Shown here: positions 34,373 to 61,442 of the stretch, piece after piece | Position numbering within the stretch: the stretch's first letter is position 1 | How the letters are laid out: every line of letters begins with the position of its first letter | Assembly (NCBI GenBank): GCA_020161615.1 | Contig: JAIUPD010000013.1 | Location: forward strand, 62,001 to 126,000 | From: Pseudomonadota bacterium | Lineage (GTDB): Bacteria; Pseudomonadota; Alphaproteobacteria; Rhodobacterales; Rhodobacteraceae | DNA: 64,000 nt | Reading direction: 5' to 3' | Program-made: the position numbers and the translations under genes | The notes under the pieces: generated by a model | What the model was told of the DNA's origin: nothing | The model's database searches: none | The model's input: only the letters and a program-made list of their open reading frames with translations

Positions 34373-35353
34373 TCAGGCGCGGGCGCGGCGCCCGCCGCGA
34401 CGGCCCGAGGAGGCGGCCGAAGCCGCGGCCGAGGCCTCGGCAAAGGTGGCGCCCGCCTGCATCGCTTCCAGAACCTTGGCCAGGCGGATCCATTCGCCGC
34501 CGTTCGGATCGTGGTCCATCAGCATGTTGGCGGCGCGGATCGCCTCCATCTCCTGATGACGGACCGGGTTCATGATGGCCGAGGTCATGCCCGCGCCGAT
34601 GGCCATGGGCAGGAAGGCGCCGTTGATGCCGTGGCGGTTGGGCAGCCCGAATGAGATGTTCGAAGCGCCGCAGGTGGTGTTGACGCCCAGTTCCTCGCGC
34701 AGGCGCTTGACCAGCGCGAACACCTGCCGCCCGGCCGAGGCCATGGCGCCCACGGGCATCACCAGCGGATCGACGACGATGTCATGCGCGGGGATGCCGA
34801 AATCGGCGGCGCGCTGGACGATCTTCTTGGCCACCTCGAAACGGACATCGGGATCGGGCGAGATGCCGGTATCGTCGTTCGAGATCGCCACCACCGGCAC
34901 ATTGTATTTCTTGACCAGCGGCAGGACCAGTTCCAGCCGCTCTTCCTCGCCCGTCACCGAGTTCAGCAGCGGGCGGCCCTGCGCGGCCTTCAGCCCCTCT
35001 TCCAGCGCGCCGGGAACGGAGCTGTCGATGCAGAGCGGCACGTCGGTGATCGCCTGAATGCGTTCGATCAGCGCCTTCATCAGCGGCGGTTCGACGAAGT
35101 TGTTGTCGGCATAGCGCGGGTCTTCGGCCATCTTGTTGGTGAAGACGGCACCCGAGTTCACGTCCAGCACCGTGGCGCCGCAGATCACCTGCTCCAGCGC
35201 GTCCTTTTCGACGGTCGAGAAATCGCCCGCCTCCAGCTCGGCCGCCAGTTTCTTGCGGCCGGTCGGGTTGATGCGCTCGCCGATCACGCAGAAGGGCTCG
35301 TCAAAGCCGATGATCACGGTCTTGGTGGCGGATTCGAGGACGGTACGGGTCAT
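34373..35353 (-). CDS. methyltetrahydrofolate:corrinoid methyltransferase (MtgA-like)
   Basis: 326 residues forming one pterin-binding TIM barrel. Conserved features are FCVIGERINPTGRKKLAAEL at 21-40, VLDVNSGAV near 63, CIDSSVPGALEEGL near 108, NSVTGEEERL and VAISNDDTG, followed by the segment GASNISFGLPNRHGINGAFL. This is the MeTr type related to the N-terminal part of MetH and to MtgA of glycine betaine catabolism, where it moves methyl from a methyl-corrinoid protein to tetrahydrofolate. A low-complexity Ala/Gly/Arg tail ends the protein. The ATG follows AAGGAG and overlaps the HAD gene stop (ATGA). Its corrinoid partner is not in the window. Confidence 0.92.
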   Translation of the reverse strand: MTRTVLESATKTVIIGFDEPFCVIGERINPTGRKKLAAELEAGDFSTVEKDALEQVICGATVLDVNSGAVFTNKMAEDPRYADNNFVEPPLMKALIERIQAITDVPLCIDSSVPGALEEGLKAAQGRPLLNSVTGEEERLELVLPLVKKYNVPVVAISNDDTGISPDPDVRFEVAKKIVQRAADFGIPAHDIVVDPLVMPVGAMASAGRQVFALVKRLREELGVNTTCGASNISFGLPNRHGINGAFLPMAIGAGMTSAIMNPVRHQEMEAIRAANMLMDHDPNGGEWIRLAKVLEAMQAGATFAEASAAASAASSGRRGGRRARA

Positions 35354-36024
35354 GAGGGAACTCCTTCTAGGCGCGTGAGGGATTCCTCGAGCGCGGGATC
35401 GGTGAAATCGGCAAGGGTGAGGCGGGCGCCCGCAGCGCGAAGCCCGGCATCGTCCAGCGTCGAGCGCAGGCCGATGACGAAAGCCCCGGCCGAGACGGCG
35501 GAACGGATGCCCGAGGGGCTGTCCTCGAAGGCGATGCAGGCCTCGGGCGCGAGGCCCAGACGGGCCATGGCGGTCAGGTAAGGATCGGGAAAGGGCTTGC
35601 CCCGGGCGCAGGTCTCGCCGCTGATCACCACCGCGAAGCGATCCCGCAGGCCGATGGCGGCCAGCATCGCCTCGGCGTTGAGGGGATTGGCGTTGGTTAC
35701 CACCGCCAGTCCCAGCCCGGCGCGCTGGGCCCGGTTCAGCAGCGCAACCAGCCCCGGCGTCGGCGGGAAGGGGCGGGGCAGGCGGCGGCGGAACTCGGCT
35801 TCCTTGATGTCGGAAAGGCCATGCGGGTCTGTCTCGTCGGGCAGGAATTCGCGGAACACATCGCTGTTCAGCCGCCCCAGCACATGCCGGTCATAGAAGG
35901 CCTGGTCGATGGCGATCCCGCGGGCCGCCATCAGGTCGCGGTAGATGGCGAAATGGATCGGGTCGGTGTGCAGCATCGTGCCGTCCAGATCGAACAGCAG
36001 CGCGGCACGGGGGGAAGGGCTCAT
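35350..36024 (-). CDS. HAD-superfamily phosphatase (phosphoglycolate/phosphoglucomutase-like)
   Basis: 224 residues. Motif I is DLDGTMLHTD (D12 nucleophile, D14 acid), motif II VVTNANP near 118, motif III CARGKPFPDPY, and motif IV CIAFEDSPSGIRSA. An alpha-helical cap lies between motifs I and II (about 25-85), the class C1 layout of phosphoglycolate phosphatase and beta-phosphoglucomutase. Substrate not identifiable. The start at 36024 is the ATG in front of MSPSPRAALLFDLDG. It is translationally coupled to the MtgA-like gene downstream. The 141 bases between it and the MTHFR-like gene upstream hold no gene I can support. Confidence 0.88.
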   Translation of the reverse strand: MSPSPRAALLFDLDGTMLHTDPIHFAIYRDLMAARGIAIDQAFYDRHVLGRLNSDVFREFLPDETDPHGLSDIKEAEFRRRLPRPFPPTPGLVALLNRAQRAGLGLAVVTNANPLNAEAMLAAIGLRDRFAVVISGETCARGKPFPDPYLTAMARLGLAPEACIAFEDSPSGIRSAVSAGAFVIGLRSTLDDAGLRAAGARLTLADFTDPALEESLTRLEGVPS

Positions 36025-36165
36025 GCGCGTCCCCCCGGGGCCGGCCGGACCTTGCCCTGGTCGACCGCATCGCGACACGCCCGGGTCGGACGGGCGAGGA
36101 CGACAGCGCAACCGCCGCTGCCCCCGGCCTTCGACAGATCGTGTTCCGCGATGCGCCGCATGACC

Positions 36166-41410: not shown

Positions 41411-42307
41411 CTACCCCGCCAGCTGCCTCAGCGCCGCCAGCAGCAGGTCGGCGCTGGGCGGCAACAGGCCCCGGCGGCGGCGATAGATCTTGAAGCTGCG
41501 CCGCCAGTCGAGGTGCGGCACCCTCAGCGCCACAACCTGCCCCTGCGCCAGATCGCCCAGCAGCACCGGCTCGGGCATCCAGCAGGCCAGATCCCCCGCC
41601 AGCACCGCCGCCCGGATTACCGCTGTCGAGCGTGATTGCAGCACCGGCAGGCCCGGTTCGATCCGCTGATCGTGAAAGCGCCGCATCCATTCGCGGGTGA
41701 TGGGCGTGGCCTGCGGCGGCATGGCCCAGTCGAGGCGCGCGGCCTCGGCCAGCGTCAGCGCACGCCCGGCCGCCGGATGCCCGGCGCGGACATAGACCCG
41801 CACCTCGTCGTGAAAACTCTCTTCCGCCGCCAGCCGGATCTCGTCATCCAGGGCTGAATCCGGCAGCACGGCCAGATCCACGGCGCCGGTTTTCAACCCC
41901 TCGACCAGCCGATCCTCCAATTCCTCGGTGACGCTGAAGGCGACCTCGGGGTGGCTTTCGCGCAGCAGCGTTAGCGCCTCGACCAGAAGCCCGCCCGCGA
42001 CCGAGCCGACGCCACCGATCCTGACCAACCCGCGCCCGGCGCCGCGCATCTGGCGGATCAGCTCCTCGGCCTGGCCGGATTCCGAGACCATGAGTTCCGC
42101 ATAGGGCAACAGCGCCGCGCCATAGGGCGTGGGCTCCACCCCCCGCGTCGTGCGCTCGAAGAGGGGCGCGTCGAGTTGCGCCTCCAGCCGGTTCAGCGCC
42201 CGTGTCACGGCGGGTTGCGCCATGTTCAGCGCCTTCGCCGCCCGGCCGATGGAGCGGCTTTGCGCGCAGGCAAGCAGGATACGGGCGTCGCGAACATCGA
42301 AAGTCAT
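41411..42307 (-). CDS. LysR-family regulator of the adjacent decarboxylase-dehydrogenase gene
   Basis: 298 residues from the ATG at 42307. HTH at about 4-62 (DARILLACAQSRSIGRAAKALNMAQPAVTRALNRLEAQL), effector domain about 88-295. It is divergent from the fused enzyme gene, the usual arrangement of LysR and its target. Its ATG lies inside the left arm of a 12-bp inverted repeat (42297-42308), so autoregulation is likely. The ligand may be an aromatic 2-oxoacid or the product of the fused enzyme. Confidence 0.93.
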   Translation of the reverse strand: MTFDVRDARILLACAQSRSIGRAAKALNMAQPAVTRALNRLEAQLDAPLFERTTRGVEPTPYGAALLPYAELMVSESGQAEELIRQMRGAGRGLVRIGGVGSVAGGLLVEALTLLRESHPEVAFSVTEELEDRLVEGLKTGAVDLAVLPDSALDDEIRLAAEESFHDEVRVYVRAGHPAAGRALTLAEAARLDWAMPPQATPITREWMRRFHDQRIEPGLPVLQSRSTAVIRAAVLAGDLACWMPEPVLLGDLAQGQVVALRVPHLDWRRSFKIYRRRRGLLPPSADLLLAALRQLAG

Positions 42308-42329
42308 AACCAACAAGTATGACTTTCGA
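42297..42329. promoter_or_regulatory. LysR operator: 12-bp perfect inverted repeat with mirrored start codons
   Basis: Arms TCGAAAGTCATA (42297-42308) and TATGACTTTCGA (42318-42329) with nine bases between. The left arm holds the LysR start codon on the minus strand; the right arm contains ATGACTTTCGA on the plus strand, so both strands begin M-T-F. The plus-strand ATG has no Shine-Dalgarno site and is not taken as the enzyme start. Position suits LysR autorepression and control of the fused gene. Confidence 0.75.
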
Positions 42330-42411
42330 ACAAACATGGCAATTCTTTCGCAGGGGCGAATCGTGCCAGATTGACCTTTCCGCGGTTCCCGGATCCGCGA
42401 GGGAGGCTTTG

Positions 42412-45400
42412 ATGAACGACCAATCGCGTCCGGCGCCGCAGGGCGTCCGCAGCGCTGTCGAAACCGTGGCCGAGGCCAGCTTTGCGCTGCTCCGGCGGCA
42501 CGGGATCGACAAGATCTTCGGCAATCCCGGCTCGACCGAACTGCCGATGTTCGTGAATCTGCCCGAGGATTTCACCTATGTGCTGGGCCTGCAGGAATCC
42601 GTCGCGGTCGGCATGGCCGATGCCCATGCCCAGATCACCGGCAACGCCGCCTTCGTGAACCTGCATTCCGCCGCGGGGCTGGGGCACGCGATGGGCAACC
42701 TCTACACGGCGATGAAGAACCGCACGCCGCTGATCGTGACCACCGGCCAGCAGACCCGCGCCCTGCTGCCGGGCGAGCCGTTTCTGGGCAACGAGGCGCC
42801 CGAGACGATGCCCGGCCCTTGCGTCAAATGGGCGATCCAGCCGGCCCGGGCCGAGGATGTGCCGCGCGCGCTGGAACAGGCCTATTGGCGGGCGATGCAG
42901 GCGCCGCGGGGTCCGGTGCTGGTCTCGGTACCCTTGGACGATTGGTCCCGCCCCGCCGCACCCATTGAACCGCGCGAGGTGTCGCTCAGGCTCGGCGCCG
43001 ATACCGAGGCGCTGGAGCGGGTGGCCGAGGGGCTGGAGGCGGCGCGTCAGGTGGCCATCGTCGTCGGTCCCGGCGTCGACCGGGACGGCGCCTGGGATGC
43101 GGTCGTGGCGCTGGCCGAAAGGCTGGCGGCGCCGGTCTGGGTCAGCCCGATGTCGTCGCGCTGTTCTTTCCCCGAGACGCATCCGCTGTTTGCCGGTTTC
43201 CTGCCCGCCGTGCAGCCCGGCATCTCGGACCGGCTTGCGCCCGCCGATGCCGTGCTGGTCCTTGGCGCGCCGGTCTTCACCTATCATTTCCCGGGCCTGC
43301 CCGAGCATCTGCGCCCCGGCACCAGCCTCTACCAGATCACCGATGACCCGGCGCAGGCGGCGGGGGCGGCAATCGGCCTGTCGCTGGTCGCCGATTGCGG
43401 CACGGCGGCGGCCTTCCTGACCGGGCGCTGCACCGCCCGCCCGGCGCCCGAGCGCCCGATGCGCGACATCCCGGGCGTGCCGCAACCCGAGACGATCACC
43501 AACGAATGGTTCATGCAGGTGCTCAGCGACCTGCGCGACCCCGACAGCATCGTGGTCGAGGAAGCCCCCAGCGCCCGCGACGCGCTGCACGATTACTTCC
43601 CCATCGACCGGCCCGGCGGCTTCTTTGCCACCGCCTCGGGCGGGCTGGGTTATGGCCTGCCGGCGGCGGTCGGCGCGGCCCTGACCGGGCAGGAGCGGCC
43701 GGTGGTGGCGATCATGGGCGATGGATCGAGCCTCTATTCCATTCAGGCGCTCTGGTCGGCGGCGGAACATGACGCCGACCTCTGCATCCTGGTCCTGAAC
43801 AACGGCGGCTACGGCGCGCTGAAGGGCATCGCCGAGAAGACGCAGGCCCGCGACGTGGCCGGGGTCACGATCAACCACCTCGATTTCGTGCAGATCGCCC
43901 GGGCGCAGGGCGTGCCGGCCGAACGCTGCGCCGATCCGGCCGTGCTGCCCGGCGCGATCCGCGAGATGCTGGCGCGGAAGGGTCCGCGCCTTCTGGAAGT
44001 GATGATCGGGCCGCAGCCCGAGACCGAGACAGCTCAACGGGAGGAAGAGCCCATGAACGTGATGACCAGCGCCGCTCCGGCGGTCCCGACCCCCAGCGCG
44101 GGCCGCCTGAAGGCGCCCGAGAAATTCTTCATCAACGGCCAATGGGTCGAGCCCCTGTCGCGTGCCAGCCTCGAGGTCGTCTCGCCGATGACCGAGGAAG
44201 TGATCCTGCGCTATCCCGAGGCCGGGACCGCCGATATCGACCGCGCTGTCGCCGCCGCGCGCCATGCCTTTGACGAGGGCCCGTGGCCGCGCCTCTCGCC
44301 CACCGAGCGTGCGCGTTACCTGCGCAAGATCGCCCGCAACATCGAAGACCGGATGGAGGATATCGTTCAGGCCTGGGTGGCGCAGGTCGGCGTGCCGGTG
44401 ATGCTGGCCAAGAAGCTGGCGCCGCAGAACGCGCAGCTTTTCGACTTCTACGCCGACATGATCGAGAGTTACCCGTTCATCGACGCCCGCAAGCGTGCCG
44501 ATGGCGGCACGACGCGGGTGGTGAAAGAACCGGTGGGCGTGACCGCCGCCATTTCGCCCTGGAACGCGCCGATGGTGCTGCTGACCTACAAGATCGCGGC
44601 GGGGCTGGCGGCGGGTTGCACCTTCGTCGCCAAACCCTCGCCTGAAACCCCGCTTGAGGCCTATGTCATGGCCGAATGCATCGAGAAGGCAGGCCTGCCC
44701 GCGGGCGTCTTCAACCTGGTGCCCGCCGGGCGCGATGTGGGTGATTACCTGATCCGCCGCCCGGACATCGACAAGGTTGCCTTCACCGGCTCGACCGCCG
44801 CGGGCAAGCATATCGCCGCGGTCTGTTCGGAGCGGCTGGCGCGGGTCTCGCTGGAACTGGGCGGCAAATCCGCCGCCGTCCTGCTGCCCGATGCCGATTT
44901 CCAGAAGGCATTGATGCCGCTCTTGATCTATTCCATGCCGATCACCGGGCAGGTCTGTTTCTCGCTGACCCGCATCCTGGTGCCCGAGACGCGCAAGCAG
45001 GAATTCCTGGATCTGTTCGTCCCGGCGGTGCAATCGCTGAAACTGGGCGATCCCTCCGATCCCTCGACCCAGATGGGCCCCCTCACCATGGCCCGCCAGC
45101 GCGAGCGGGTCGAGGGCTATATCAAGGCCGGGATCGAAGGCGGCGCGCGGGTCCTTTGCGGCGGCAAGCGTCCCGCGGGGATGGAGAAGGGCTTCTTCAT
45201 CGAGCCCACGGTCTTCACCGATGTCACCCCCGGCATGAAGATCTTCCAGGAAGAGATTTTCGGCCCGGTCGTTTCGGTGATCGGCTACCGCGACGAGGAG
45301 GACGCGGCGCGCAAGGCCAATGACTCGGTCTATGGGCTCGCGGGTGCCGTCTTCTCGCAGGACCCGGAAAAGGCCTATGCCTTTGCCCGGCGGGTGCGGG

Positions 45401-45540
45401 CAGGCAATATGTCGGTCAATTCGATGATCGTGGACATCACCATGCCTTTCGGCGGTTTCAAGCAATCGGGGCAGGGGCGCGAGGGCGGGATCGAGGGGTT
45501 GGAGAATTACCTCGAAACCAAGTCCATCCACATGGGGTAA
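42412..45540 (+). CDS. benzoylformate decarboxylase-like / aldehyde dehydrogenase fusion
   Basis: 1042 residues in one frame. Residues 1-547: ThDP enzyme closely resembling MdlC; BFD active-site residues S26, E47, H70 and H281 align with S41 (GNPGSTELP), E62 (GLQES), H85 (NLHSAAG) and H292 (FTYHFPG); cofactor motif G436-D437-G438 with a trailing NN. Residues 548-1042: aldehyde dehydrogenase with N718 (SPWNAP), E815 (LELGGK) and C849 (GQVCFS), i.e. N171, E268 and C302 in domain numbering. It would convert an aryl 2-oxoacid to an aldehyde and then the acid, as MdlC and MdlD do separately. The junction has no linker: codon 542 is CAA (44035-44037) where a stop is expected, with GGGAGGAAGAG and ATG (44053) behind it. 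A TAA to CAA change or a sequencing error would explain it. Start: ATG behind GGGAGGC. Confidence 0.9.
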   Translation: MNDQSRPAPQGVRSAVETVAEASFALLRRHGIDKIFGNPGSTELPMFVNLPEDFTYVLGLQESVAVGMADAHAQITGNAAFVNLHSAAGLGHAMGNLYTAMKNRTPLIVTTGQQTRALLPGEPFLGNEAPETMPGPCVKWAIQPARAEDVPRALEQAYWRAMQAPRGPVLVSVPLDDWSRPAAPIEPREVSLRLGADTEALERVAEGLEAARQVAIVVGPGVDRDGAWDAVVALAERLAAPVWVSPMSSRCSFPETHPLFAGFLPAVQPGISDRLAPADAVLVLGAPVFTYHFPGLPEHLRPGTSLYQITDDPAQAAGAAIGLSLVADCGTAAAFLTGRCTARPAPERPMRDIPGVPQPETITNEWFMQVLSDLRDPDSIVVEEAPSARDALHDYFPIDRPGGFFATASGGLGYGLPAAVGAALTGQERPVVAIMGDGSSLYSIQALWSAAEHDADLCILVLNNGGYGALKGIAEKTQARDVAGVTINHLDFVQIARAQGVPAERCADPAVLPGAIREMLARKGPRLLEVMIGPQPETETAQREEEPMNVMTSAAPAVPTPSAGRLKAPEKFFINGQWVEPLSRASLEVVSPMTEEVILRYPEAGTADIDRAVAAARHAFDEGPWPRLSPTERARYLRKIARNIEDRMEDIVQAWVAQVGVPVMLAKKLAPQNAQLFDFYADMIESYPFIDARKRADGGTTRVVKEPVGVTAAISPWNAPMVLLTYKIAAGLAAGCTFVAKPSPETPLEAYVMAECIEKAGLPAGVFNLVPAGRDVGDYLIRRPDIDKVAFTGSTAAGKHIAAVCSERLARVSLELGGKSAAVLLPDADFQKALMPLLIYSMPITGQVCFSLTRILVPETRKQEFLDLFVPAVQSLKLGDPSDPSTQMGPLTMARQRERVEGYIKAGIEGGARVLCGGKRPAGMEKGFFIEPTVFTDVTPGMKIFQEEIFGPVVSVIGYRDEEDAARKANDSVYGLAGAVFSQDPEKAYAFARRVRAGNMSVNSMIVDITMPFGGFKQSGQGREGGIEGLENYLETKSIHMG

Positions 45541-45565
45541 TCCGCGGGTTGGGAGCGGAAGGCGG

Positions 45566-45594
45566 AACGGCCCGGGGCTCACCCGGGCCGTTTT
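45566..45594 (+). terminator. intrinsic terminator of the decarboxylase-dehydrogenase gene
   Basis: Arms AACGGCCCGGG (45566-45576) and CCCGGGCCGTT (45582-45592), five-base loop, ending in TTTT (45591-45594), 25 bases behind the stop. Confidence 0.88.
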
Positions 45595-45618: not shown

Positions 45619-46077
45619 TCAGACCACTTCCCAGATCCCGATCTCGACGGCGCTGGCAAAGCGTGCGCCGGTGCCGACAAAGACCGTGCGGTTCACCCAT
45701 TCGTAGCGCGGATCGCCGGTGTGGAGGCGCGGCTGGGTGCGCATGTAATATTCCGCCGGATCCACCGCCTCGCCCTTCGCCACCCGGGCCAGGACCTCGG
45801 CCGGGCCATGCCGGTAACCGAAGTTGCGGATGTCGATCAGCGCGCCGTCATGCGTCTCGATGGCGTAACGGGTGTCAAGCTCGGCGTGTCCCGGGTAGAG
45901 CGTCTGCCAATCGGCGCCCAGGTTCAGGACCCGTCCCTCGATCCGCCCGGTTACCGTCCCGCCGATGATCGGGATGATCCGCCAGGTCAACCCGTCAGCC
46001 GCCCCCTTTTCCAAAGGCGCCGCCAGCTCGGCCCGGATGTGACAGACCTGGCGCAGTTCCGGTGTGGCAAATTTCAT
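45619..46077 (-). CDS. DUF3237 domain protein
   Basis: 152 residues, a single small beta-barrel-like domain: IRAELAAPLEKGAADGLTWRIIPIIGGTVTGRIEG near the start, LDTRYAIETHDGALIDIRNFGYRHGP in the middle and YYMRTQPRLHTGDPRYEWVNRTVFVGTG at the end are characteristic of DUF3237. No biochemical function is assigned. It overlaps the DctM stop by four bases (ATGA), so it is expressed with the TRAP transporter and probably handles the imported compound. The neighbouring BFD-ALDH fusion points to aromatic acids, but this is inferred. Confidence 0.85.
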   Translation of the reverse strand: MKFATPELRQVCHIRAELAAPLEKGAADGLTWRIIPIIGGTVTGRIEGRVLNLGADWQTLYPGHAELDTRYAIETHDGALIDIRNFGYRHGPAEVLARVAKGEAVDPAEYYMRTQPRLHTGDPRYEWVNRTVFVGTGARFASAVEIGIWEVV

Positions 46078-47369
46078 CCCATGGTCCTTGGCAGCCAGAG
46101 CACGATGGCCGGGAAGGCCACCAGAATGGCCAGCCGCAACACATCCGCCGCGATGAAGGGCAGCACGCCGCGGAAGATCACCGGCAGTTTCACTTCCTTG
46201 GCGATCATGTTGATCACATAGACGTTTATCCCGACGGGCGGCGTGATCAACCCCAGTTCGGCGGTCATGACGATGATGATGCCGAACCAGATCGGGTCGA
46301 AGCCCAGATGCACGATCACCGGATAGACGATCGGCACCATGAGGATGATCATCGCCATGGAATCGAGGATGCAGCCGGCGATGATGAAGACCAGAAGGAT
46401 CAGCGCCAGCGTGCCCATGGGCCCGAAGTCGAGCGCCACGAGCCACGAGGTCAGTTTCTGCGGCGATTGGGTGATGGCCAGGAAATACCCGAACAGCATG
46501 GCCCCGATCAGGACGGTATAGACCGAGACCGAGGTCCGAAGCGCCTCGGTCAGGCTGTCGACGATCTGGCGGAAGTTGAGCCGCCCGCGAACGATCCCCA
46601 CCACCATGGTCAGCGTGGCGCCGATGGCCGAGGCCTCGGTGGGCGTGGCGACGCCCCAGTAGATCGAGCCGATCACCATGACGAAAAGCAGCACCACCGC
46701 CCAGATCCCGGCCAGCGAGCGCATGGCCTCGACAAGGCTGAAGGGCGTGCCGGCGGGCAGGGACTTGCGGTGCCCGATCAGCAGCGCGGCCATGTACATG
46801 GCGATGGCCAGAAGCCCCGGCACGATCCCGGCGATGAAGAGTTTGCCGACATCGGTTTCGGTGATGTAGGCATAGACCACCATCACGACCGAGGGCGGGA
46901 TCAGGATCCCCAGCGTGCCGCCCGCGGCGATGACGCCGGTCGCCGCATCCTCGCGGTAGCCGTAGCGGCGCATCTCGGGCAGCGCGATCTTGGTCATCGT
47001 CGCGGCGGTCGCCACCGACGAGCCGCAGATCGCGGCGAACCCGCCGCAAGCGGCGATGGTCGACAGCCCCAGCCCGCCCCTGAACGGGCCGAGCCAGGCG
47101 TTGCCCGCCCTGAACAATTCCTTGCTGATGCCGGAATTGGTGGCGAAAATCCCCATCAGGATGAAGAAACTGACCAGCGTCAGGTTGAAGTCCGTGATCA
47201 CCCGGATGGGCGAGGAGGCCAGCAGGTTCAGCGCCGGGCCGATGCCGCGGATCGCGGCGAAGCCGAAGACGCCGACCAGGCCCATGGCGATGCCGATCGG
47301 CACCCGCAGCGCCATCATGCCAAAGAGCGCGAGGAAACCGACGAGGGCGATAAGGTCAGGGGTCGTCAT
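46074..47369 (-). CDS. dctM: TRAP transporter large permease DctM
   Basis: 431 residues, about twelve membrane helices. DctM signatures ACGGFAAICGSSVATAATMTKIALPEMRRYGY, GTLGILIPPSVVMVVYAYITE, YWGVATPTEASAIGATLTMV and GCILDSMAMIILMVPIVYPV are clear. It forms the proton/sodium-coupled transport channel with the DctQ protein encoded one base upstream. It is followed with a four-base overlap by the DUF3237 gene. Confidence 0.95.
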   Translation of the reverse strand: MTTPDLIALVGFLALFGMMALRVPIGIAMGLVGVFGFAAIRGIGPALNLLASSPIRVITDFNLTLVSFFILMGIFATNSGISKELFRAGNAWLGPFRGGLGLSTIAACGGFAAICGSSVATAATMTKIALPEMRRYGYREDAATGVIAAGGTLGILIPPSVVMVVYAYITETDVGKLFIAGIVPGLLAIAMYMAALLIGHRKSLPAGTPFSLVEAMRSLAGIWAVVLLFVMVIGSIYWGVATPTEASAIGATLTMVVGIVRGRLNFRQIVDSLTEALRTSVSVYTVLIGAMLFGYFLAITQSPQKLTSWLVALDFGPMGTLALILLVFIIAGCILDSMAMIILMVPIVYPVIVHLGFDPIWFGIIIVMTAELGLITPPVGINVYVINMIAKEVKLPVIFRGVLPFIAADVLRLAILVAFPAIVLWLPRTMG

Positions 47370-47370
47370 G

Positions 47371-47883
47371 TCAGTCCAGCTTCTGCGCGGCTTCGCGCTC
47401 GAATTCGGGATTCGCCTTGCCGGTGGCCAGCAGGAACAGGCGCACGGTCACGGTCAGGATGCTGATGGCGGTTCCGGCCCAGATCAGCGCCATCAGGGGC
47501 CAGACCGGCAGGCGCAGGTCGAAGGTCGCCTCGTTCGAGCGCATGGCGCTGTCGACGCGGCCGAACATCTTCCAGGCCAGCAGCACGACGAAGAGCAAGA
47601 GCACCGCCCAGGCCAGGAACTCGACCCAGCGGCGGGCGCGGTCGGGCATCATCTCGACGAAAAGGTCGACGGTGATATGACCGCCGCGATAGCCGACCGA
47701 GGCGAAGCCCCACATGATGCAGGCGCCGATCAGCAGGCGCGAGACATCGAAACTGTCGGGGACGGGGGTGGTCAGCGCATAGCGGCCGATGGCCGAGACG
47801 ACGATGAGGATCGTGCACAGGCCGAGCAGCAGCCCGGCCAGCATTTCCACGACCCGGCAGAAACGTTCCAGGATCTTGACCAA
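47371..47883 (-). CDS. dctQ: TRAP transporter small permease DctQ
   Basis: 170 residues if the TTG at 47883 is used; GTG at 47850 or ATG at 47844 are in-frame alternatives and no start has a good Shine-Dalgarno site. Four hydrophobic helices and the motif ACIMWGFASVGYRGGHITVDLFVEMMPDRARR are typical of DctQ. It lies 68 bases behind the DctP gene and one base before DctM. Confidence 0.9.
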   Translation of the reverse strand: MVKILERFCRVVEMLAGLLLGLCTILIVVSAIGRYALTTPVPDSFDVSRLLIGACIMWGFASVGYRGGHITVDLFVEMMPDRARRWVEFLAWAVLLLFVVLLAWKMFGRVDSAMRSNEATFDLRLPVWPLMALIWAGTAISILTVTVRLFLLATGKANPEFEREAAQKLD

Positions 47884-47951: not shown

Positions 47952-48980
47952 TCACTGCCCGTAGAGCCCGTCATAACGGGCCAGCGCGTCGCGCAGCCCC
48001 TGCAGCATCGCCTCGCCGTCACGGCCTTGCGATTCCATCAGCGCCAGCCATTCGGCGGTCAGCGGCTCGGCCGCGGCCTGCCACAGCGCCACCTGTTCGG
48101 CGTTGGGCGTGTGCAGCGTATGCGCGGGATCGGCGGCAATCGAGGCGCGTCCGGCGGCCTCGGCCCCGGCCCAGCCGGTCGACATCTCTTCGGCGGCCTC
48201 GGGCGTGCAGTGGTTCATCATGATGGTCCGCAGATCCTCGGGCATGCCGTCGATCATCGCCCGGTTCATGACGAAACCGTTGATCGAGGCATAGAAGGGC
48301 ATATCGAGGTGATGCGTGACCAGCGTATCCGCGCCGAAGATATAGAGCGACTGCCAGGGCGATTGCGTGATGTCGGCGGTGCCGTTCGACAGCACCTCGC
48401 GCATCGCCGGGGCCGGCACCTGCACCGAGGCCCCGCCCAGAAGGTTCACGAAGCGGGCTTCGGTGGCGTTGGCCGGGCGCACGGTGCGGCCGCGCACATC
48501 CTCGGGCACCAGGATCGGCTCCTTGCCGTGCATCGTGCCCGGGTCATGGGTCAGCGCCATGCAGAAATAGACATCGCTCATCTCGATGTCGTCATAGCCG
48601 CCCTGCTGATACCATTCGGTCAGGCCACGCACGGCGCCGGTGGCATTGGCAAAGAGGAACGGCAGTTCCGCGGCGGCCAGGATCGGGAAGCGGCCCGGCT
48701 GATAGCCCGGGTTGATGAAGGCGATATCGGCGATCCCGTCGCGGGCCATGTCGTAATGGTCGGCCGCCGCGCCCAGCTGCTGGGCGGGATAGACGGTGAA
48801 GGTGATGCGCCCGCCCGATTCCTCGGTGATCGACTGCATCCAGGGCTCCATGCCCAGGACCTGCAGCGGATGCGTGGCGGGCACCCAATGGGCGAGGCTG
48901 AGGTTGTATTCCTGCGCGTTGGCGGCGGCGCCAAGGCACAGGGCGACGGCCGTGGCGGCTGCCATGGTTCTGACGGTCAT
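47952..48980 (-). CDS. dctP: TRAP transporter solute-binding protein DctP
   Basis: 342 residues with a signal peptide (1-22, AANA) behind a strong GGGAGGAG site. DctP family features: LSLAHWVPATHPLQVLGMEPWMQSITEESGGRITFTVYPAQQLGAAADHYDMARDGIADIAFINPGYQPGRFP near the start and the ligand-binding arginine region GRTVRPANATEARFVNLLG (about 168-186). Characterised DctP proteins bind carboxylates; the neighbours suggest an aromatic or 2-oxo/2-hydroxy acid. It is divergent from the ThDP gene at 49409 across 428 bases that contain two ATGTRTACAT sites. Confidence 0.94.
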   Translation of the reverse strand: MTVRTMAAATAVALCLGAAANAQEYNLSLAHWVPATHPLQVLGMEPWMQSITEESGGRITFTVYPAQQLGAAADHYDMARDGIADIAFINPGYQPGRFPILAAAELPFLFANATGAVRGLTEWYQQGGYDDIEMSDVYFCMALTHDPGTMHGKEPILVPEDVRGRTVRPANATEARFVNLLGGASVQVPAPAMREVLSNGTADITQSPWQSLYIFGADTLVTHHLDMPFYASINGFVMNRAMIDGMPEDLRTIMMNHCTPEAAEEMSTGWAGAEAAGRASIAADPAHTLHTPNAEQVALWQAAAEPLTAEWLALMESQGRDGEAMLQGLRDALARYDGLYGQ

Positions 48981-49045: not shown

Positions 49046-49055
49046 ATGTGTACAT
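49046..49055. promoter_or_regulatory. GntR/FCD-like half of a two-site operator (dctP side)
   Basis: ATGTGTACAT, 66 bases ahead of the dctP start. It differs in one base from the perfect palindrome at 49383-49392 and fits the NGTNNACN type of FCD-GntR regulators. No GntR gene is in the window. Confidence 0.5.
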
Positions 49056-49382
49056 GCCAAGGGGATTCGGACAAGCAATTTCTGGATCGTCAAATCAGAT
49101 TCGGCGGCGCAGCCCCGCTCGCCCCTGCCGCGCCGCGGCATCGTTCGCTGGGCGCCGGTTGGGCGCCGACTCGCCCCGATAGTCGCCGAATCGCCCGGTA
49201 TTGCCTGTTATTTTGGCACGATTTCAAGGCTAATTCCGTCCGGGATTTCCCGGGGGACCGAGGCCGGTTTCATCTCAGGGTGCCGAACATGCCGCCTTTG
49301 CGCCCGATTTCCGCCGCGAAGGCCCCGCAGTGTCGCACTCGCCCGTTGCGCTGCACGGAAGGGTCGGGCAGTCTCGCAATCA

Positions 49383-49392
49383 ATGTATACAT
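49383..49392. promoter_or_regulatory. GntR/FCD-like operator (ThDP-enzyme side)
   Basis: ATGTATACAT, a perfect 10-bp palindrome that ends 16 bases before the ThDP start, between the likely transcription start and the GGGAGGGG site. With 49046-49055 it frames the divergent promoter region. Confidence 0.55.
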
Positions 49393-49408
49393 CCAGGGAG
49401 GGGTGGCC

Positions 49409-51064
49409 ATGAAAGTCGGGGATGCAATCGCCGAGATCCTGCGGCGCGAAGGCGTCGAGATGGTGATCGGTTACCCGGTCAACCATGTGCTGGAATATGC
49501 CGCCATCGCCAATATCCGGCCGATCATCGTCCGGCAGGAGCGCACCGGCGCCCATATGGCCGACGCCATCAGCCGCCTGACCAGCGGCGAGAAGATCGGC
49601 GTCTTCGTCATGCAATCGGGTCCCGGGGCGGAAAACACCTATGGCGCCATCGCCCAGGCCTATTCGGAATCGGTGCCGCTCTTGGTCATGCCGGGCGGCT
49701 ATCACCGGCGGCTTGCCCATGTCTCGCCGAACTACAATTCCACCATTTCCATGCGCGACATCACCAAATCGGCCGAGCCGATCAACGATGCGCGCGAGAT
49801 CCCGGCCATCATGCGCCGCGCCTTTTCCCGCCTGAAGAACGGCCGCGGCGGCCCGGTGCTGGTCGAGATCCCCAATGACATCTGGGGCGACGAGGTGCCC
49901 GAGCCCCTGAATTACAAGCCCGTCCTGCGCTCCAAATTCGGCCCCGATCCGGCGGCCGTGGTCGAGGCCGTCTCGCTGCTGGCCGGGGCCAAGCGGCCGG
50001 TGATCTACGCGGGTCAGGGCGTGCATTACGCCAAGGCCTGGCCGCAGCTGAAGGCGCTGGCCGAGCGGCTCTCGATCCCGGTCTGCACCTCGCTGGAAGG
50101 CAAAAGCGCCTTCCCCGAGGATCACAAGCTGGCGCTGGGCTCGGGTGGCGCGGCGCTGCCGCTGACGGTGCGGCATTTCCTCGACAACGCCGACGTCATC
50201 TTCGGCATCGGCTGCTCCTTCACCGAAACCGCCTTCGGGGTGGAGATGCCGCTGGGCAAGCGCGTCATCCACGCCACGCTGGACCCTGATCACGTCAACA
50301 AGGACCTTGAGGCCGAGGTGGCGCTGATCGGCGACGCCGCACTGACGCTGGACGCGGTTCTGGCCGAGATCGAGGGCCGACGCTTGGCCCGGCCCGATCC
50401 GCAATCCGTGGCCGATGAAATCCAGCGCATCCGCGCGCAATGGATGAAGAAATGGATGGTCAAGCTGCGCTCGGACGAGGCGCCGTTCCGGCCCTACCGC
50501 GTGCTCTGGGACCTGCAGCAGACGGTCGATGTGGCGAACACCATCATCACCCATGATGCGGGCTCGCCCCGCGACCAGCTCTCGCCCTTCTGGGTCTCGA
50601 CCACGCCGCTCAGCTACATCGGCTGGGGCAAGTCCACGCAGCTAGGCTATGGCCTTGGCCTCGCCATGGGCGCCAAGCTCGCCTGCCCGGACAAGCTGTG
50701 CATCAATGTCTGGGGCGATGCGGCGATCGGCTTCACCGGCATGGATTTCGAGACCGCGGTGCGGGAACGCATCCCGATCCTGTCGATCCTGCTGAACAAC
50801 CATTCCATGGCCATGGAATTGCCGATCATGCCCGTCTCGACCGAGAAATACCGATCGACCGACATCGGCGGCGATTACGCGGCCTTCGCCAAGGCGATGG
50901 GCGGCTATGGCGAGCGGATCACCGAAGTCTCGGAAATCATCCCCGCCATCAAGCGCGGCATCGCCGCGACCGAGGCGGGGCAACCCGCGCTTTTGGAATT
51001 CATCACCTGTCAGGAGATCGAATCCTCCAAATATCCGCGCGGCTCGGGGAACCTCTACCCGTGA
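49409..51064 (+). CDS. thiamine-diphosphate-dependent enzyme, acetolactate synthase-like, unassigned substrate
   Basis: 551 residues. Three ThDP-family domains are visible: N-terminal PYR domain with catalytic E44 (VRQERTGAHMAD), central domain (about 185-330) and C-terminal PP domain. The cofactor motif reads G436-D437-A438 where GDG is usual, followed at the proper distance by N463-N464 and HSMAMELP. Mg-ThDP can still bind with GDA. The family includes oxalyl-CoA and sulfopyruvate decarboxylase-like enzymes, but I cannot place it further. ATG behind GGGAGGGG. The stop overlaps the FAD oxidase start (GTGA), so both enzymes are made together: a 2-oxoacid from the oxidase may feed this enzyme. 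Confidence 0.88.
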   Translation: MKVGDAIAEILRREGVEMVIGYPVNHVLEYAAIANIRPIIVRQERTGAHMADAISRLTSGEKIGVFVMQSGPGAENTYGAIAQAYSESVPLLVMPGGYHRRLAHVSPNYNSTISMRDITKSAEPINDAREIPAIMRRAFSRLKNGRGGPVLVEIPNDIWGDEVPEPLNYKPVLRSKFGPDPAAVVEAVSLLAGAKRPVIYAGQGVHYAKAWPQLKALAERLSIPVCTSLEGKSAFPEDHKLALGSGGAALPLTVRHFLDNADVIFGIGCSFTETAFGVEMPLGKRVIHATLDPDHVNKDLEAEVALIGDAALTLDAVLAEIEGRRLARPDPQSVADEIQRIRAQWMKKWMVKLRSDEAPFRPYRVLWDLQQTVDVANTIITHDAGSPRDQLSPFWVSTTPLSYIGWGKSTQLGYGLGLAMGAKLACPDKLCINVWGDAAIGFTGMDFETAVRERIPILSILLNNHSMAMELPIMPVSTEKYRSTDIGGDYAAFAKAMGGYGERITEVSEIIPAIKRGIAATEAGQPALLEFITCQEIESSKYPRGSGNLYP

Positions 51065-52437
51065 GCGTCGAGAGCGTCATCTCCGGCCTGCGGTCCCTTC
51101 TGGGCGACCGCCTCGCCACCTCGAACGCGGTGCGCGACCACCACAGCCACGACAGTTCTTGGCACCCGGCGGCGCTGCCCGATGCCGTGGCCTTCCCCCG
51201 GACCGAGGCCGAGGTGCAGGCAATCGTCCGCCTCTGCGCCGAGCATGACGTGGCGGTCATCCCCTTCGGCGCGGGCTCGTCGATGGAGGGGCACACGATC
51301 CCCACCCGGGGCGGAGTCACCATCGACCTGCGCGACATGAACAAGGTGCTGGAGATCCGGCCCGAGGATGGCCTCGCCGTGGTGCAGGCGGGCGTCACCC
51401 GCAAGCAGCTCAACACCGAACTCAGGGCCACCGGTCTCATGTTCTCCGTCGATCCCGGCGCGGATGCCTCGCTCGGCGGCATGGCCTCGACACGGGGCTC
51501 GGGCACCATGGCTTATCGCTATGGCACGATGCGTGACAATGTGCTGGCGCTCAGGGTGGTGACGGCGGACGGGCAGGTGGTGAAGACCGGCAGCCGGGCG
51601 CGGAAATCCTCGACCGGCTACGACCTGACGCATCTCTTCGTGGGCGCCGAGGGGACGCTGGGCGTCATCACGGAACTCACCGTGCGGCTGCATCCGATCC
51701 CCGAGGCCGTGTCCTCGGCCATCTGCGCCTTCCCCGATGCGCAAAGCGCCGTGGCCTGCGTGATCGAGGCGGTGCAATACGGCCTGCCGATGGCGCGGGT
51801 CGAGTTCCTGGACGAGGTGGCGGTGTCGAACGTCAATTCCTATTCCGGGCTCACGCTCAGGGTCGCGCCGACGCTGCTGTTTGAATTCCACGGGACCGAG
51901 GCCTGGGCCGCCGAACAGGCGCAGATCGTCGAAAGCCTGGCGGAGGGCCATGGCGGCGCCGATTTCGTCTGGACCGCGGATGCCGAGGAGCGCGGGCGCC
52001 TCTGGCAGGCACGCCATGACCTCTATTGGGCGACCAAGGCGCGGCGCCCGGGGTGCGAGCTTTATACCGGCGACATCTGCGTGCCGATCTCGGAACTGGC
52101 GGGCCAGATCGAGGCGGCGCGCGCCGATATCGAGGCGAGTTTCCTGGAGGGGCAGATCATCGGCCATGTCGGCGACGGCAATTACCACGCCGGCTACCTG
52201 GTGATGCGCGACAGCCCCGAGGAGATGGCCGAGGCGGCGCGGTTGGCCGAACGGCTGGTCGAGCGGGCCCTGCAGGTCGGCGGCACCGCCAGCGGCGAGC
52301 ACGGGATCGGGCTGGCGAAACTGAAGTTCCTGAGGGCCGAACACGGCGATGCGGCGGTCGAGCTGATGAAGACGCTGAAGAGGGCGATGGATCCCAAGGG
52401 CATCCTGAACCCCGGCAAGCTCGGCCAGGCAGGCTAG
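51061..52437 (+). CDS. FAD-linked 2-hydroxyacid oxidoreductase (GlcD / D-lactate dehydrogenase-like)
   Basis: 458 residues from a GTG that overlaps the ThDP gene stop. The N-terminal FAD_binding_4 domain (about 35-215) has VIPFGAGSSMEGHTIPTRGGVTIDL and GADASLGGMASTRGSGTMAYRYGTMRDNVL; the C-terminal FAD-oxidase domain has HVGDGNYHAGYLV (about 364-376, metal-binding histidines) and GTASGEHGIGLAKLKFL. It oxidises a D-2-hydroxyacid to the 2-oxoacid. Usual length for the family is 455-480. The expected product is the type of substrate the coupled ThDP enzyme would use. Headless repeat copy E follows within 8 bases. Confidence 0.93.
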   Translation: MSVESVISGLRSLLGDRLATSNAVRDHHSHDSSWHPAALPDAVAFPRTEAEVQAIVRLCAEHDVAVIPFGAGSSMEGHTIPTRGGVTIDLRDMNKVLEIRPEDGLAVVQAGVTRKQLNTELRATGLMFSVDPGADASLGGMASTRGSGTMAYRYGTMRDNVLALRVVTADGQVVKTGSRARKSSTGYDLTHLFVGAEGTLGVITELTVRLHPIPEAVSSAICAFPDAQSAVACVIEAVQYGLPMARVEFLDEVAVSNVNSYSGLTLRVAPTLLFEFHGTEAWAAEQAQIVESLAEGHGGADFVWTADAEERGRLWQARHDLYWATKARRPGCELYTGDICVPISELAGQIEAARADIEASFLEGQIIGHVGDGNYHAGYLVMRDSPEEMAEAARLAERLVERALQVGGTASGEHGIGLAKLKFLRAEHGDAAVELMKTLKRAMDPKGILNPGKLGQAG

Positions 52438-58236: not shown

Positions 58237-61083
58237 ATGTCCCTTGCCCTGATCGCGGCGCTGCCTTTCCTCGGCGCGCTTCTGCCCGGCCTCCTGATCC
58301 GCTCGGGGCGCAATACCTGCGCCAGCGTGACCTTCGCCACCACGGGCCTGGCCTTCATCGGCCTTCTGCTGCACGCCCCCGCCGTCATCGGCGCCGGAGG
58401 GGTGGTGACCGAGGGCTACGAATGGCTGCCGCAACTCGGCCTCAACGTGAATTTCATGCTCGACGGGCTGGGATTCCTGTTCGCGACGATGATCCTGGGC
58501 ATCGGCCTGCTGATCATCCTGTATGCGCGGTTCTACCTGTCGAAGAATGACCCGATGGGGAATTTCTACACCTATCTGCTGCTGTTCCAGGGCGCGATGG
58601 TGGGGATTGTCCTGTCGGACAACATCCTGCTTCTGTTGATCTTCTGGGAGCTGACCTCGCTCAGCTCGTTCCTGCTGATCGGCTATTGGAAGCATTTGCC
58701 CGAGGGGCGCCAGGGCGCGCGCATGGCGCTGACGGTGACGGGCATGGGCGGGCTGGCCATGATCGGGGGCATGCTGATCCTGGGCCAGATCGCCGGCAGC
58801 TATGACCTGCACGTGATTCTGGAGCAGAAGGACGCGATCCAGTCCTCCGAGTATTACCTGCCCGCCCTTCTGCTGATCCTGCTGGGCGCCTTCACCAAAT
58901 CGGCGCAATTCCCGTTCCATTTCTGGCTGCCGCATGCCATGGCCGCGCCCACGCCCGTCTCGGCCTATCTGCATTCGGCGACGATGGTGAAAGCGGGGCT
59001 CTTCCTGATGGCGCGGCTCTGGCCGGTGCTGTCGGGGACGCCCGAATGGTTCTGGATCGTCGGCGGGGCGGGGCTCATCACCATGGTGCTGGGCGCGGTG
59101 ATCGCGCTCTTCAAGGACGATCTGAAGGCGCTGCTGGCCTTCTCGACCGTCTCGCATCTGGGGCTGATCACCCTGCTGCTGGGCCTCGGCACCGATTACG
59201 CCGCCGCCGCCGCCGTCTTCCACATCATCAACCACGCCACCTTCAAGGCCGCGCTCTTCATGACCGCGGGGATTGTCGATCACGAGGCGCATACCCGCAA
59301 CATCCGCCTCTTGGGCGGCCTGAGGAAGCTGATGCCGGTGACCTTCACCATCGGCACCATCGCCGCGCTGTCGATGGCCGGGATCCCCTTCTTCAACGGT
59401 TTCCTGTCGAAAGAGATGATGCTGGAGGCCACGCATGACGCGGGCACCTGGTTCGGCGTCATCGCCACCATCGGCGCCATCTTCTCGGTCGCCTATTCCT
59501 TCCGCTTCATCTTCCACACCTTCATGGGGCCGGTGCGGAACGATTATCCGCATCATCCGCATGACCCGGGTTTCGGCATGTGGGTTTCGCCCGCCCTTCT
59601 CTGCGTGCTGGTGCTGGCGATCGGGCTCTTCCCCGACCAAACGGTGGGCCATTTCGTCGATACCGTGGCCAGCGCCGTGACCGGGACCGATGTGCATGTG
59701 CATCTGGCGCTCTGGCACGGCGTCACGCCCGCGCTGATCATGTCGGGCATCGCCGTGGCGGTGGGCATCGTGCTGCTGTCCTTCCAGCGCGGCCTGGCGC
59801 CGATCTGGGACCGCGCCCCGCGCCTCGAGGCCAAGGCGATCTTCGACGCCATCGTCAACAACGCGGCCAAAGGTGCCATCAGCCTGACCGATGCGCTGCA
59901 TGACGGGGCGATCTCGCGCTATCTCGGCATCCTGACGGCGGTGATCGTGGCCTACGCCGGCTGGGCCTTCTGGGGCGGCGAGTTCACGCCCGGCACGCGC
60001 GAGATGCTGCCGGTCGGGCCGGTGGAAGTGGTCTTCTTCGCCATCCTCATGGTCGCCGTGGCGGGGGTGACGCTGGTGCACCGCATGCGCTTCATCTCGC
60101 TGATCGTCATCTCGATCTGCGGCCTCGTGGTGTCAATGACCTTCGTGCAATTCTCGGCCCCTGACCTGGCGCTCACGCAGCTCACGGTCGAGGTCGTCAC
60201 CGTCATCCTGCTGCTGCTGGCGCTGAATTACCTGCCGAAGGAGACGCCAGTCGAATCCCGCCCGGCCCGGCGCCTGCGCGACGGGATCATCGCTCTGGCC
60301 GCCGGCGGCGGGGTGGGGGCGCTGGCCTTCGCCATCCTGACCCGCGACATGTCGCTGCCGACCATCTCCGATTACCACGTCGCCAATTCCTATACCGGCG
60401 GCGGCGGCAACAACGTGGTCAACGTCATCCTGGTGGACTTCCGCGGCTTCGATACGATGGGCGAGATTGCGGTGCTGGGCATCGCCGGCCTGGTGATCTA
60501 TGCGCTGGTCGAGGTGATGCTGCACGGCCCCGCGTCGCGCCGGTTGCAGAACTGGGTGCCCGACATGGCCCAGGCCCGCGACCGCCATCCGCTGATGATG
60601 GTCGTGGCCACGCGGCTTGCGCTGCCCATCGCCCTGACCGTCGGCGTCTACATCTTCCTGCGCGGCCATAACGAGCCGGGCGGGGGTTTCATCGCCGGTC
60701 TGGTCGTGGCCATCGCGCTGCTCATGCAATACATGGCCTCGGGCTTCGCCTGGACCCAGGCGCGGCAGAAGGTGGCCTATCACGGGGTGATCTCGGCGGG
60801 CGTGCTGATCGCCGTCTTCACCGGCATCGCCAGCGTGATCCTGGGATGGAACTTTCTCACCTCGACCAGCGAATACGTGCAGATCTGGCCGCTCGACCGC
60901 ATCCACCTGGCAAGCGCCGCCTCGTTCGACCTGGGCGTGTTCCTGACCGTGGTCGGCGCGGTGATGCTGGCGCTGGCCAGCCTCAGCCGGATCGGCGTGC
61001 GCGCGGGCGAAGGCATCAACCTCACCCCCATGGATGTCAATCCACAGGCCGACAGCCGAACCATCAACCCGGAGGAAAGCTGA
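58237..61083 (+). CDS. mrpA: Mrp Na+/H+ antiporter subunit A, fused with subunit B
   Basis: 948 residues. Residues about 1-780 are MrpA, related to NuoL, with LLIFWELTSLSSFLLIGYW (about 132-150), KSAQFPFHFWLPHAMAAPTPVSAYLHSATMVKAG (about 222-255) and LLAFSTVSHLGLITLLLG; the last 170 residues are an MnhB-like domain with SIFLRGHNEPGGGFIAGLV-type helices (about 805-925). There is no separate mrpB, so this is the fused form. The antiporter exports sodium with uptake of protons and supports pH and salt tolerance. Confidence 0.95.
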   Translation: MSLALIAALPFLGALLPGLLIRSGRNTCASVTFATTGLAFIGLLLHAPAVIGAGGVVTEGYEWLPQLGLNVNFMLDGLGFLFATMILGIGLLIILYARFYLSKNDPMGNFYTYLLLFQGAMVGIVLSDNILLLLIFWELTSLSSFLLIGYWKHLPEGRQGARMALTVTGMGGLAMIGGMLILGQIAGSYDLHVILEQKDAIQSSEYYLPALLLILLGAFTKSAQFPFHFWLPHAMAAPTPVSAYLHSATMVKAGLFLMARLWPVLSGTPEWFWIVGGAGLITMVLGAVIALFKDDLKALLAFSTVSHLGLITLLLGLGTDYAAAAAVFHIINHATFKAALFMTAGIVDHEAHTRNIRLLGGLRKLMPVTFTIGTIAALSMAGIPFFNGFLSKEMMLEATHDAGTWFGVIATIGAIFSVAYSFRFIFHTFMGPVRNDYPHHPHDPGFGMWVSPALLCVLVLAIGLFPDQTVGHFVDTVASAVTGTDVHVHLALWHGVTPALIMSGIAVAVGIVLLSFQRGLAPIWDRAPRLEAKAIFDAIVNNAAKGAISLTDALHDGAISRYLGILTAVIVAYAGWAFWGGEFTPGTREMLPVGPVEVVFFAILMVAVAGVTLVHRMRFISLIVISICGLVVSMTFVQFSAPDLALTQLTVEVVTVILLLLALNYLPKETPVESRPARRLRDGIIALAAGGGVGALAFAILTRDMSLPTISDYHVANSYTGGGGNNVVNVILVDFRGFDTMGEIAVLGIAGLVIYALVEVMLHGPASRRLQNWVPDMAQARDRHPLMMVVATRLALPIALTVGVYIFLRGHNEPGGGFIAGLVVAIALLMQYMASGFAWTQARQKVAYHGVISAGVLIAVFTGIASVILGWNFLTSTSEYVQIWPLDRIHLASAASFDLGVFLTVVGAVMLALASLSRIGVRAGEGINLTPMDVNPQADSRTINPEES

Positions 61084-61084
61084 C

Positions 61085-61432
61085 ATGGAAGCGCTTGTCG
61101 CCATCGCCATCGGCGCGATGACCGCATCCGGGGTCTATCTGATGCTGCGTCTGCGGACCTTTCCGGTCGTGCTGGGCCTGTCGATGCTCACCTATGCGGT
61201 GAACGTCTTCATCTTCGCCTCGGGTCGGCTCGTGGCCGGGGCGCCGCCGATCCTCGGCGCGGCACCCACCATGACCGACCCGCTGCCGCAGGCGCTGGTG
61301 CTGACCGCCATCGTCATCTCGTTCGGGATGACGGCGCTCACGGTCATTCTGGCACTGGGGTCCTACCTCAACGCCGGGACCGACCAGATCGACATCGAGC
61401 GGCCGGGCGAGCAGCCCGAAACCGGCAACTGA
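61085..61432 (+). CDS. mrpC: Mrp antiporter subunit C
   Basis: 115 residues with three membrane helices; NuoK-like with VYLMLRLRTFPVVLGLSMLTYAVNVFIFASGR and DPLPQALVLTAIVISFGMTALTVILAL. The start at 61085 is one base behind the mrpA stop and follows GGAGGAAAG. An earlier in-frame start would lie inside mrpA. Confidence 0.95.
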   Translation: MEALVAIAIGAMTASGVYLMLRLRTFPVVLGLSMLTYAVNVFIFASGRLVAGAPPILGAAPTMTDPLPQALVLTAIVISFGMTALTVILALGSYLNAGTDQIDIERPGEQPETGN

Positions 61433-61442
61433 GGCCCTGATC

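Follow-up and report, generated by a model that had tools for sequence, protein, structure and literature searches.

Does a single long open reading frame in a rhodobacterial genome encode one bifunctional enzyme, or is it a two-gene operon whose first stop codon has been lost or misread? The frame in question, at positions 42412-45540 of a 64,000-nt stretch of the Rhodobacteraceae assembly GCA_020161615.1 (contig JAIUPD010000013.1, positions 62,001-126,000; hereafter "the window"), joins a thiamine diphosphate (ThDP) decarboxylase of the benzoylformate decarboxylase (BFD) type to an aldehyde dehydrogenase (ALDH). An earlier note on this DNA had described it as a fusion of the mandelate-pathway enzymes MdlC and MdlD, either young or due to a sequence error, with a stop expected at codon 542. 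Compared at the sequence level with its relatives, the gene is a real, old and conserved fusion with two predicted activities.

The fused gene and its relatives

The frame runs for 1042 codons without a stop before its terminal TAA (45538-45540), and the anti-Shine-Dalgarno (anti-SD) energy at its native start is -11.9. In the encoded protein, Pfam places TPP_enzyme_N, M, and C within residues 18-530 and Aldedh at residues 578-1039. The decarboxylase half scores 673 bits against NF005485 (benzoylformate decarboxylase), passing the curated cut-off of 493; for the ALDH half, no ALDH family stands above its own cut-off among the best 25 of 95 NCBIfam matches. Residues S41, E62, H85, H292, D437, and N464 of the decarboxylase half are intact in all five fused sequences aligned (the window and four relatives, L063, L064, L065, and L038); we take them to be the counterparts of the catalytic residues Ser26, Glu47, His70, and His281 and of the metal ligands. 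The ALDH half keeps N718, E815, and C849, presumably the catalytic Asn, Glu, and Cys. The Cys motif is SGQVC in L064 where the others have TGQVC, with the Cys itself retained. With an open frame, both sets of Pfam domains, and these residues present, the earlier description of a single 1042-codon frame retaining its active sites is borne out, and by all these predicted features the frame truly joins a BFD-type decarboxylase to an ALDH. An antisense open frame of 1092 aa (42304-45582, minus strand) spans the entire fused gene; it probably just reflects GC-rich codon use.

Fused genes were found in several other assemblies. Within Pararhodobacter, one is that of G001 (96% identity over all 1042 residues), here taken as one assembly with P. 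aggregans L063 (95%); P. zhoushanensis L064 has an unbroken frame at 81% identity. A third Pararhodobacter assembly, G017, matches at 85%, with residues 328-1042 in one frame and residues 1-359 in a separate one. This locus (L110; G017:C1:1414028-1417143) thus has a broken decarboxylase half where L064, about 94% identical to it in DNA, has one frame; the split may be error or decay, the two being indistinguishable here. Farther away, the gene is fused in a Hyphomicrobiaceae metagenome-assembled genome (MAG; L065, 60% identity) and in G662 (locus L038), from another family of the same class, where the decarboxylase half is 61% and the ALDH half 71% identical. Six assemblies (window, P. aggregans, G017, P. 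zhoushanensis, L065, and G662) therefore have no stop at the junction, which speaks against a sequence error, and the open junction in relatives as distant as L065 and G662 does not agree with a young fusion.

The fused gene is rarely met in the genomes sampled. All genome counts are from samples, and the first pass scored only the top few candidates per genome, so absences may be overstated. A joined frame occurs in at least 3 of 18 genus genomes among the matches listed (the window's own, G001, and G017). The decarboxylase was found at E up to 1e-100 in one of 394 family genomes (G001 and G017 lying outside that draw) and in six of 376 class genomes; at 1e-80 it was found in one of 390 order genomes and in 24 of 398 phylum genomes, with an open frame of more than 1000 in the window's own genome and in G662. 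A scan of named genomes gave 45 loci, three of them fused (L063, L064, and L065), while L103 and L107 end before the junction. Two further candidates were rejected as fusions: Pigmentiphaga L071, which has TGA at the junction in codon view, and a Variovorax plasmid match (H3) that aligns in one piece over 98% of the query, also with TGA at the junction. No description of a natural decarboxylase-ALDH fusion of this kind was found in the literature, judged by titles. The window's own genome has two further places (G000:C6:265721-268816 and G000:C4:323391-326506) where an ALDH and a ThDP enzyme adjoin unfused, ALDH first; the pairing thus recurs.

The junction and the supposed lost stop

The expectation of a stop at codon 542 came from the resemblance of the following sequence to the start of a second gene. 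In close relatives there is none: all four Pararhodobacter copies (window, G001/L063, G017, and L064) have CAA at this position. To place the stops of unfused relatives, slots were counted by offset from an aligned residue; 60 of 72 rows could be placed, of which 4 are fused and 2 have no usable tail. The remaining 54 stop at the slot of codon 534 (40 cases), 541 (2), 542 (1, L066), or 545 (11). The most common slot is thus eight codons before codon 542, and the window reads CCG there. In the unfused decarboxylases of L072, L069, L071, and the plasmid L121, the stop follows directly after VA or IA. A single base change would turn any of 213 of the 1042 codons of the fused gene into a stop, and 8 of these lie in the range 532-569, so the nearness of CAA to TAA weighs little. 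A lost stop at codon 542 was accordingly rejected, L066 alone stopping there. The L066 frame, of 960 aa, contains no second Pfam domain upstream.

Selection on the two halves and the linker

In comparison with P. aggregans, the ratio of nonsynonymous to synonymous substitution rates (dN/dS) is 0.10 for the decarboxylase half, 0.05 for the ALDH half, and 0.66 for the linker (36 codons); with P. zhoushanensis it is 0.21, 0.10, and 0.48 (linker of 33 codons). Both halves are under purifying selection within Pararhodobacter, with looser constraint on the linker. From LLE(V/I) to EKFF there are 39, 39, 36, 22, and 22 residues in the window, L063, L064, L065, and L038 respectively, always in frame. 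A structure model of the fused protein, built with 38 rows, has confidence below 50 at linker residues 537-564. Loose constraint together with low model confidence favors, by inference, a flexible tether over a rigid tunnel.

Very probably, then, this is an established bifunctional enzyme that would turn a 2-oxo acid into an aldehyde and this into a shorter acid, its halves tethered by a flexible linker. The N-terminal half, with ThDP and Mg, would decarboxylate the 2-oxo acid; the C-terminal half would oxidize the aldehyde with NAD(P) to a carboxylic acid one carbon shorter. The linker, of about 25-30 flexible residues, would hold the active sites close, with the reactive aldehyde consumed locally, and free ALDH might additionally be started at an internal ATG (44053). 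The substrate would be a bulky 2-oxo acid, aryl or otherwise, which might enter through the tripartite ATP-independent periplasmic (TRAP) system encoded nearby (Table 1). It could also arise by oxidation of a 2-hydroxy acid by the nearby GlcD-like flavin adenine dinucleotide (FAD)-linked dehydrogenase; a path from 2-hydroxy acid to 2-oxo acid, aldehyde, and acid would fit.

Substrate pocket and the mandelate pathway

The known system closest to the N-terminal half is benzoylformate decarboxylase (MdlC; Protein Data Bank (PDB) 1bfd, 4q9d), along with the 4-hydroxybenzoylformate decarboxylases (6qsi, 7orx). The family score, fold match, metal ligands, and catalytic Ser/Glu/His/His are alike; the window enzyme differs in its fusion to an ALDH and in having Ile and Ala in the slots of Phe464 and Phe397. 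Its C-terminal half resembles the ALDH family PF00171 (nearest solved chains 3b4w, 6x9l, and 3ty7) over the whole domain and in the catalytic Asn, Glu, and Cys, but is tethered at its N-terminus. Unfused neighbors with the same gene order and direction, in some cases with a divergent LysR gene, are found in L072 (a Sterolibacterium MAG), L069 (Cupriavidus), L071 (Pigmentiphaga), and the plasmid L121 (Variovorax); unlike the window fusion, these have a stop directly behind the decarboxylase.

Pocket slots were mapped by hand through alignment to 4k9o, whose title mutation, Phe397Ala, agrees with the mapping, and counts were made without 6 unfused rows of less than 450 residues. The Phe464 slot holds Ile in all five fused sequences, as against Phe in 61, His in one, and Ile in none of the 62 unfused rows. 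The Phe397 slot holds Ala in all five fused sequences, and Thr in 55 of the 62 unfused rows. In L065 and L038 the Ala460 slot is Val, so that these two have naturally the same pair as the engineered enzyme of PDB 5dgd (title F464I/A460V). With Ile in the Phe464 slot of all fused sequences, benzoylformate is a candidate substrate, not a given. A search of the literature on F464I, judged by titles, found no description of such a natural fusion.

One possibility is that the gene is the mandelate-pathway pair MdlC-MdlD as a single chain, with benzoylformate and benzaldehyde as its substrates. This would accord with the NF005485 score above cut-off and with the LysR and ALDH genes that also lie beside unfused decarboxylases (e.g., L069, L070, and L071). 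The altered Phe464 and Phe397 slots argue against it, as does the ALDH half, which shares 32-38% identity with 21 of the 22 ALDHs matching in unfused decarboxylase loci (the exception being L072, at 57.6%); 11 of these ALDHs form a clade separate from the fused ones. This test of kinship used ALDHs beside unfused decarboxylases, with no characterized MdlD sequence among them. Of the earlier "MdlC plus MdlD," the BFD-type decarboxylase with an ALDH therefore stands, but the description is too narrow; we regard a fused mandelate pair as possible, if somewhat doubtful. A broader proposal can be put forward just as tentatively: the fused genes might make up a distinct and patchily distributed bifunctional family that converts 2-oxo acids to shorter acids, with a changed pocket (Ile in the Phe464 slot, and in part Val in that of Ala460), a 2-oxo acid imported by a dedicated TRAP transporter as substrate, and nested products of one gene, such that fused and free ALDH subunits share an assembly.

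One fusion or two

As a second possibility, the fusion may have arisen twice from the same gene pair, once in Pararhodobacter and once in the line of L065 and L038. In a careful tree built from 31 selected rows, the five fused genes group as a single clade by their decarboxylase halves (support 100/100), as they do in a quick tree of 65 rows (SH-aLRT 100), and none of the unfused rows sampled falls inside it; the larger tree was made without L043, L092, L098, L102, L103, L107, and two more rows of less than 450 residues. In the ALDH tree, the fused halves form one clade with five free Pararhodobacter ALDHs (100/99), in which the free copies are sister to the Pararhodobacter fused ALDHs (97/94). 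In keeping with two fusions, this topology requires at least two changes, and the linkers of Pararhodobacter and of L065/L038 differ. A later duplication yielding the free ALDH would account for it too, so the ALDH tree may be read either as a single fusion with a free copy made later or as two fusions. The single decarboxylase clade argues for the former, as does the finding of no decarboxylase match around the free copies in the stretches of five genomes (the family search of their surroundings covered one, L116), with the copy in the window's own genome adjoining a flotillin-type gene. Independent fusions thus appear rather unlikely.

That copy (L116; G000:C11:14000-30000) is a free ALDH that shares 73% identity with the fused half and lies behind a flotillin/band-7 gene; a second ALDH and genes for an ABC transporter of the branched-chain amino acid type lie near. 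The Sterolibacterium MAG locus L072 has a related pair unfused (ALDH 57.6%, decarboxylase 49.5% identical), and its decarboxylase is not adjacent to the fused clade in the 65-row tree.

A candidate internal start

Directly behind codon 542, the earlier note had pointed out a Shine-Dalgarno (SD) sequence, GGGAGGAAGAG, and an ATG (44053); both are placed as claimed, and the SD is strong. Its anti-SD energy is -10.3 in the window, L063, and L064, the best of 53, 51, and 64 in-frame ATGs respectively; in L038 it is -11.9, the best of 50 examined. To judge from these values, a second product, free ALDH from the internal ATG, is plausible, and in Pararhodobacter likely.

As a third possibility, separate products may dominate, with the internal start making most of the ALDH and the fused chain a tolerated read-through of a stop lost long ago. 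Besides the internal SD being the best in the gene in four of the fused sequences, the relaxed constraint on the linker would be in keeping with this. The keeping of the frame and of a stop-free junction down to about 60% protein identity, and with linkers of various lengths, is not, nor is the weakness of the internal SD in L065, and we consider it unlikely. Finally, a sequence error or a recent stop loss in one strain, with a two-gene operon as the true state, would account for the gene-start-like SD and ATG after CAA, but is extremely improbable: three further Pararhodobacter copies likewise read CAA and have no stop at the junction, and the junction is also open in L065 and L038, whose linkers differ.

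Several observations weigh against the favored reading, an established bifunctional enzyme with tethered halves. The internal SD is weak in L065 (-4.6, rank 8 of 30), and synonymous redraws of the sequence before the internal ATG match the observed SD strength in 52% of cases for the window, 60% for L063, 27% for L065, and 2.5% for L038; in most of these sequences the strength thus follows from the encoded residues, and makes no case for selection. The fused ALDHs are not monophyletic, as described above. L065 is a MAG contig with low stated coverage, and the 7842 bases of it examined gave no match to the LysR or TRAP genes. The structure model is moderate, with a mean predicted local distance difference test score (pLDDT) of 79.5 and a predicted template modeling score (pTM) of 0.51, and falls below 50 outside the linker as well (residues 1-14, 115-132, 687-694, 699-705, and 1014-1036). 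Its ALDH half overlays solved ALDHs with a root mean square deviation (rmsd) of 4.2-4.6 and a target template modeling (TM) score of 0.87-0.88; for the decarboxylase half as a whole against 1bfd, the values are 16.4 and 0.63. This poor overlay makes the relative placement of the model's parts uninformative; neither it nor the missing LysR and TRAP genes of L065 touches the reality of the fusion.

Gene neighborhood

Table 1. Features of the fused gene and its surroundings (positions in the window).
Feature	Position	Strand	Basis
Fused gene, ThDP decarboxylase (BFD type) + ALDH, 1042 aa	42412..45540	+	Pfam, NCBIfam, native start
Decarboxylase half, residues 1-533	42412..44010	+	TPP_enzyme N/M/C; NF005485; PDB benzoylformate decarboxylases by sequence
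Linker, residues 534-569	44011..44118	+	dN/dS; model confidence <50 at 537-564
ALDH half, residues 570-1042	44119..45537	+	PF00171, E 7e-156
CAA codon 542, supposed lost stop	44035..44037	+	CAA also in G001/L063, G017, L064
Internal SD GGGAGGAAGAG (44039-44049) and ATG (44053, codon 548)	44039..44055	+	Anti-SD energy -10.3; candidate start of a 495-aa free ALDH
LysR-type regulator, divergent	41411..42337	-	PF00126, PF03466; 54% identical gene in same place in L108
TRAP large permease DctM	46074..47369	-	PF06808; 69% identical neighbor in L108
TRAP small permease DctQ	47371..47883	-	PF04290; 60% in L108
TRAP solute-binding protein DctP	47952..48980	-	PF03480; 58% in L108; nearest solved chain 7nqg, 281 bits
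Second ThDP enzyme, PRK06154 type	49046..51064 (frame as listed)	+	NF004807, 852 bits, cut-off 607
GlcD-like FAD-linked dehydrogenase	50698..52437 (as listed; true start probably later)	+	PF01565, PF02913; TIGR00387, 319 bits, below cut-off 568

The order LysR, fusion, TRAP is common to the window, L063/L109, L064/L110, and L108 (G662). In L109 and L110, as in the window, a PRK06154-type ThDP enzyme and a GlcD-like FAD dehydrogenase follow; neither was matched in 16 kb of L108. The NF004807 match to this second ThDP enzyme begins at residue 121, so its true start is probably later. Nine unfused decarboxylases have a LysR gene (34-39% identity) directly upstream, and matches of DctM or DctP type occur in six unfused loci (L076, L082, L084, L088, L093, and the Bosea plasmid L122). 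The last of these, a Bosea vestrisii plasmid typed as conjugative, carries ALDH and mdlC as separate genes in the opposite order, with TRAP genes lying downstream of them; such a plasmid is a possible route for the spread of these clusters.

The structure model of DctP (mean pLDDT 31.5) was worthless, and no relevant literature was found on its PDB relatives. One report (PMC3610893) describes TarP of Rhodopseudomonas palustris, a TRAP binding protein for aromatic acids; that the window DctP is of this kind is only a guess. Neither a mandelate racemase nor a flavin mononucleotide (FMN)-dependent mandelate dehydrogenase was seen among the subset of window open reading frames scanned for families. 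Elsewhere in the window are a methyltetrahydrofolate:corrinoid methyltransferase-type gene (NF005719) adjoining a HAD-family hydrolase (34373-36111, minus strand), and Mrp-type Na+/H+ antiporter genes (58237-63077), the first frame of which combines Proton_antipo, MbhD, MbhE, and MnhB.

Implications

A natural decarboxylase-dehydrogenase chimera would offer an immediate way to test whether there is a gain from tethering two enzymes that act in succession, with a reactive aldehyde between them, and the fused enzyme is a possible scaffold for biocatalysts. The TRAP and LysR neighbors, together with the altered pocket, make the question of its substrate directly testable. With its nested start after the linker, the gene may also be a case of one gene with two products.

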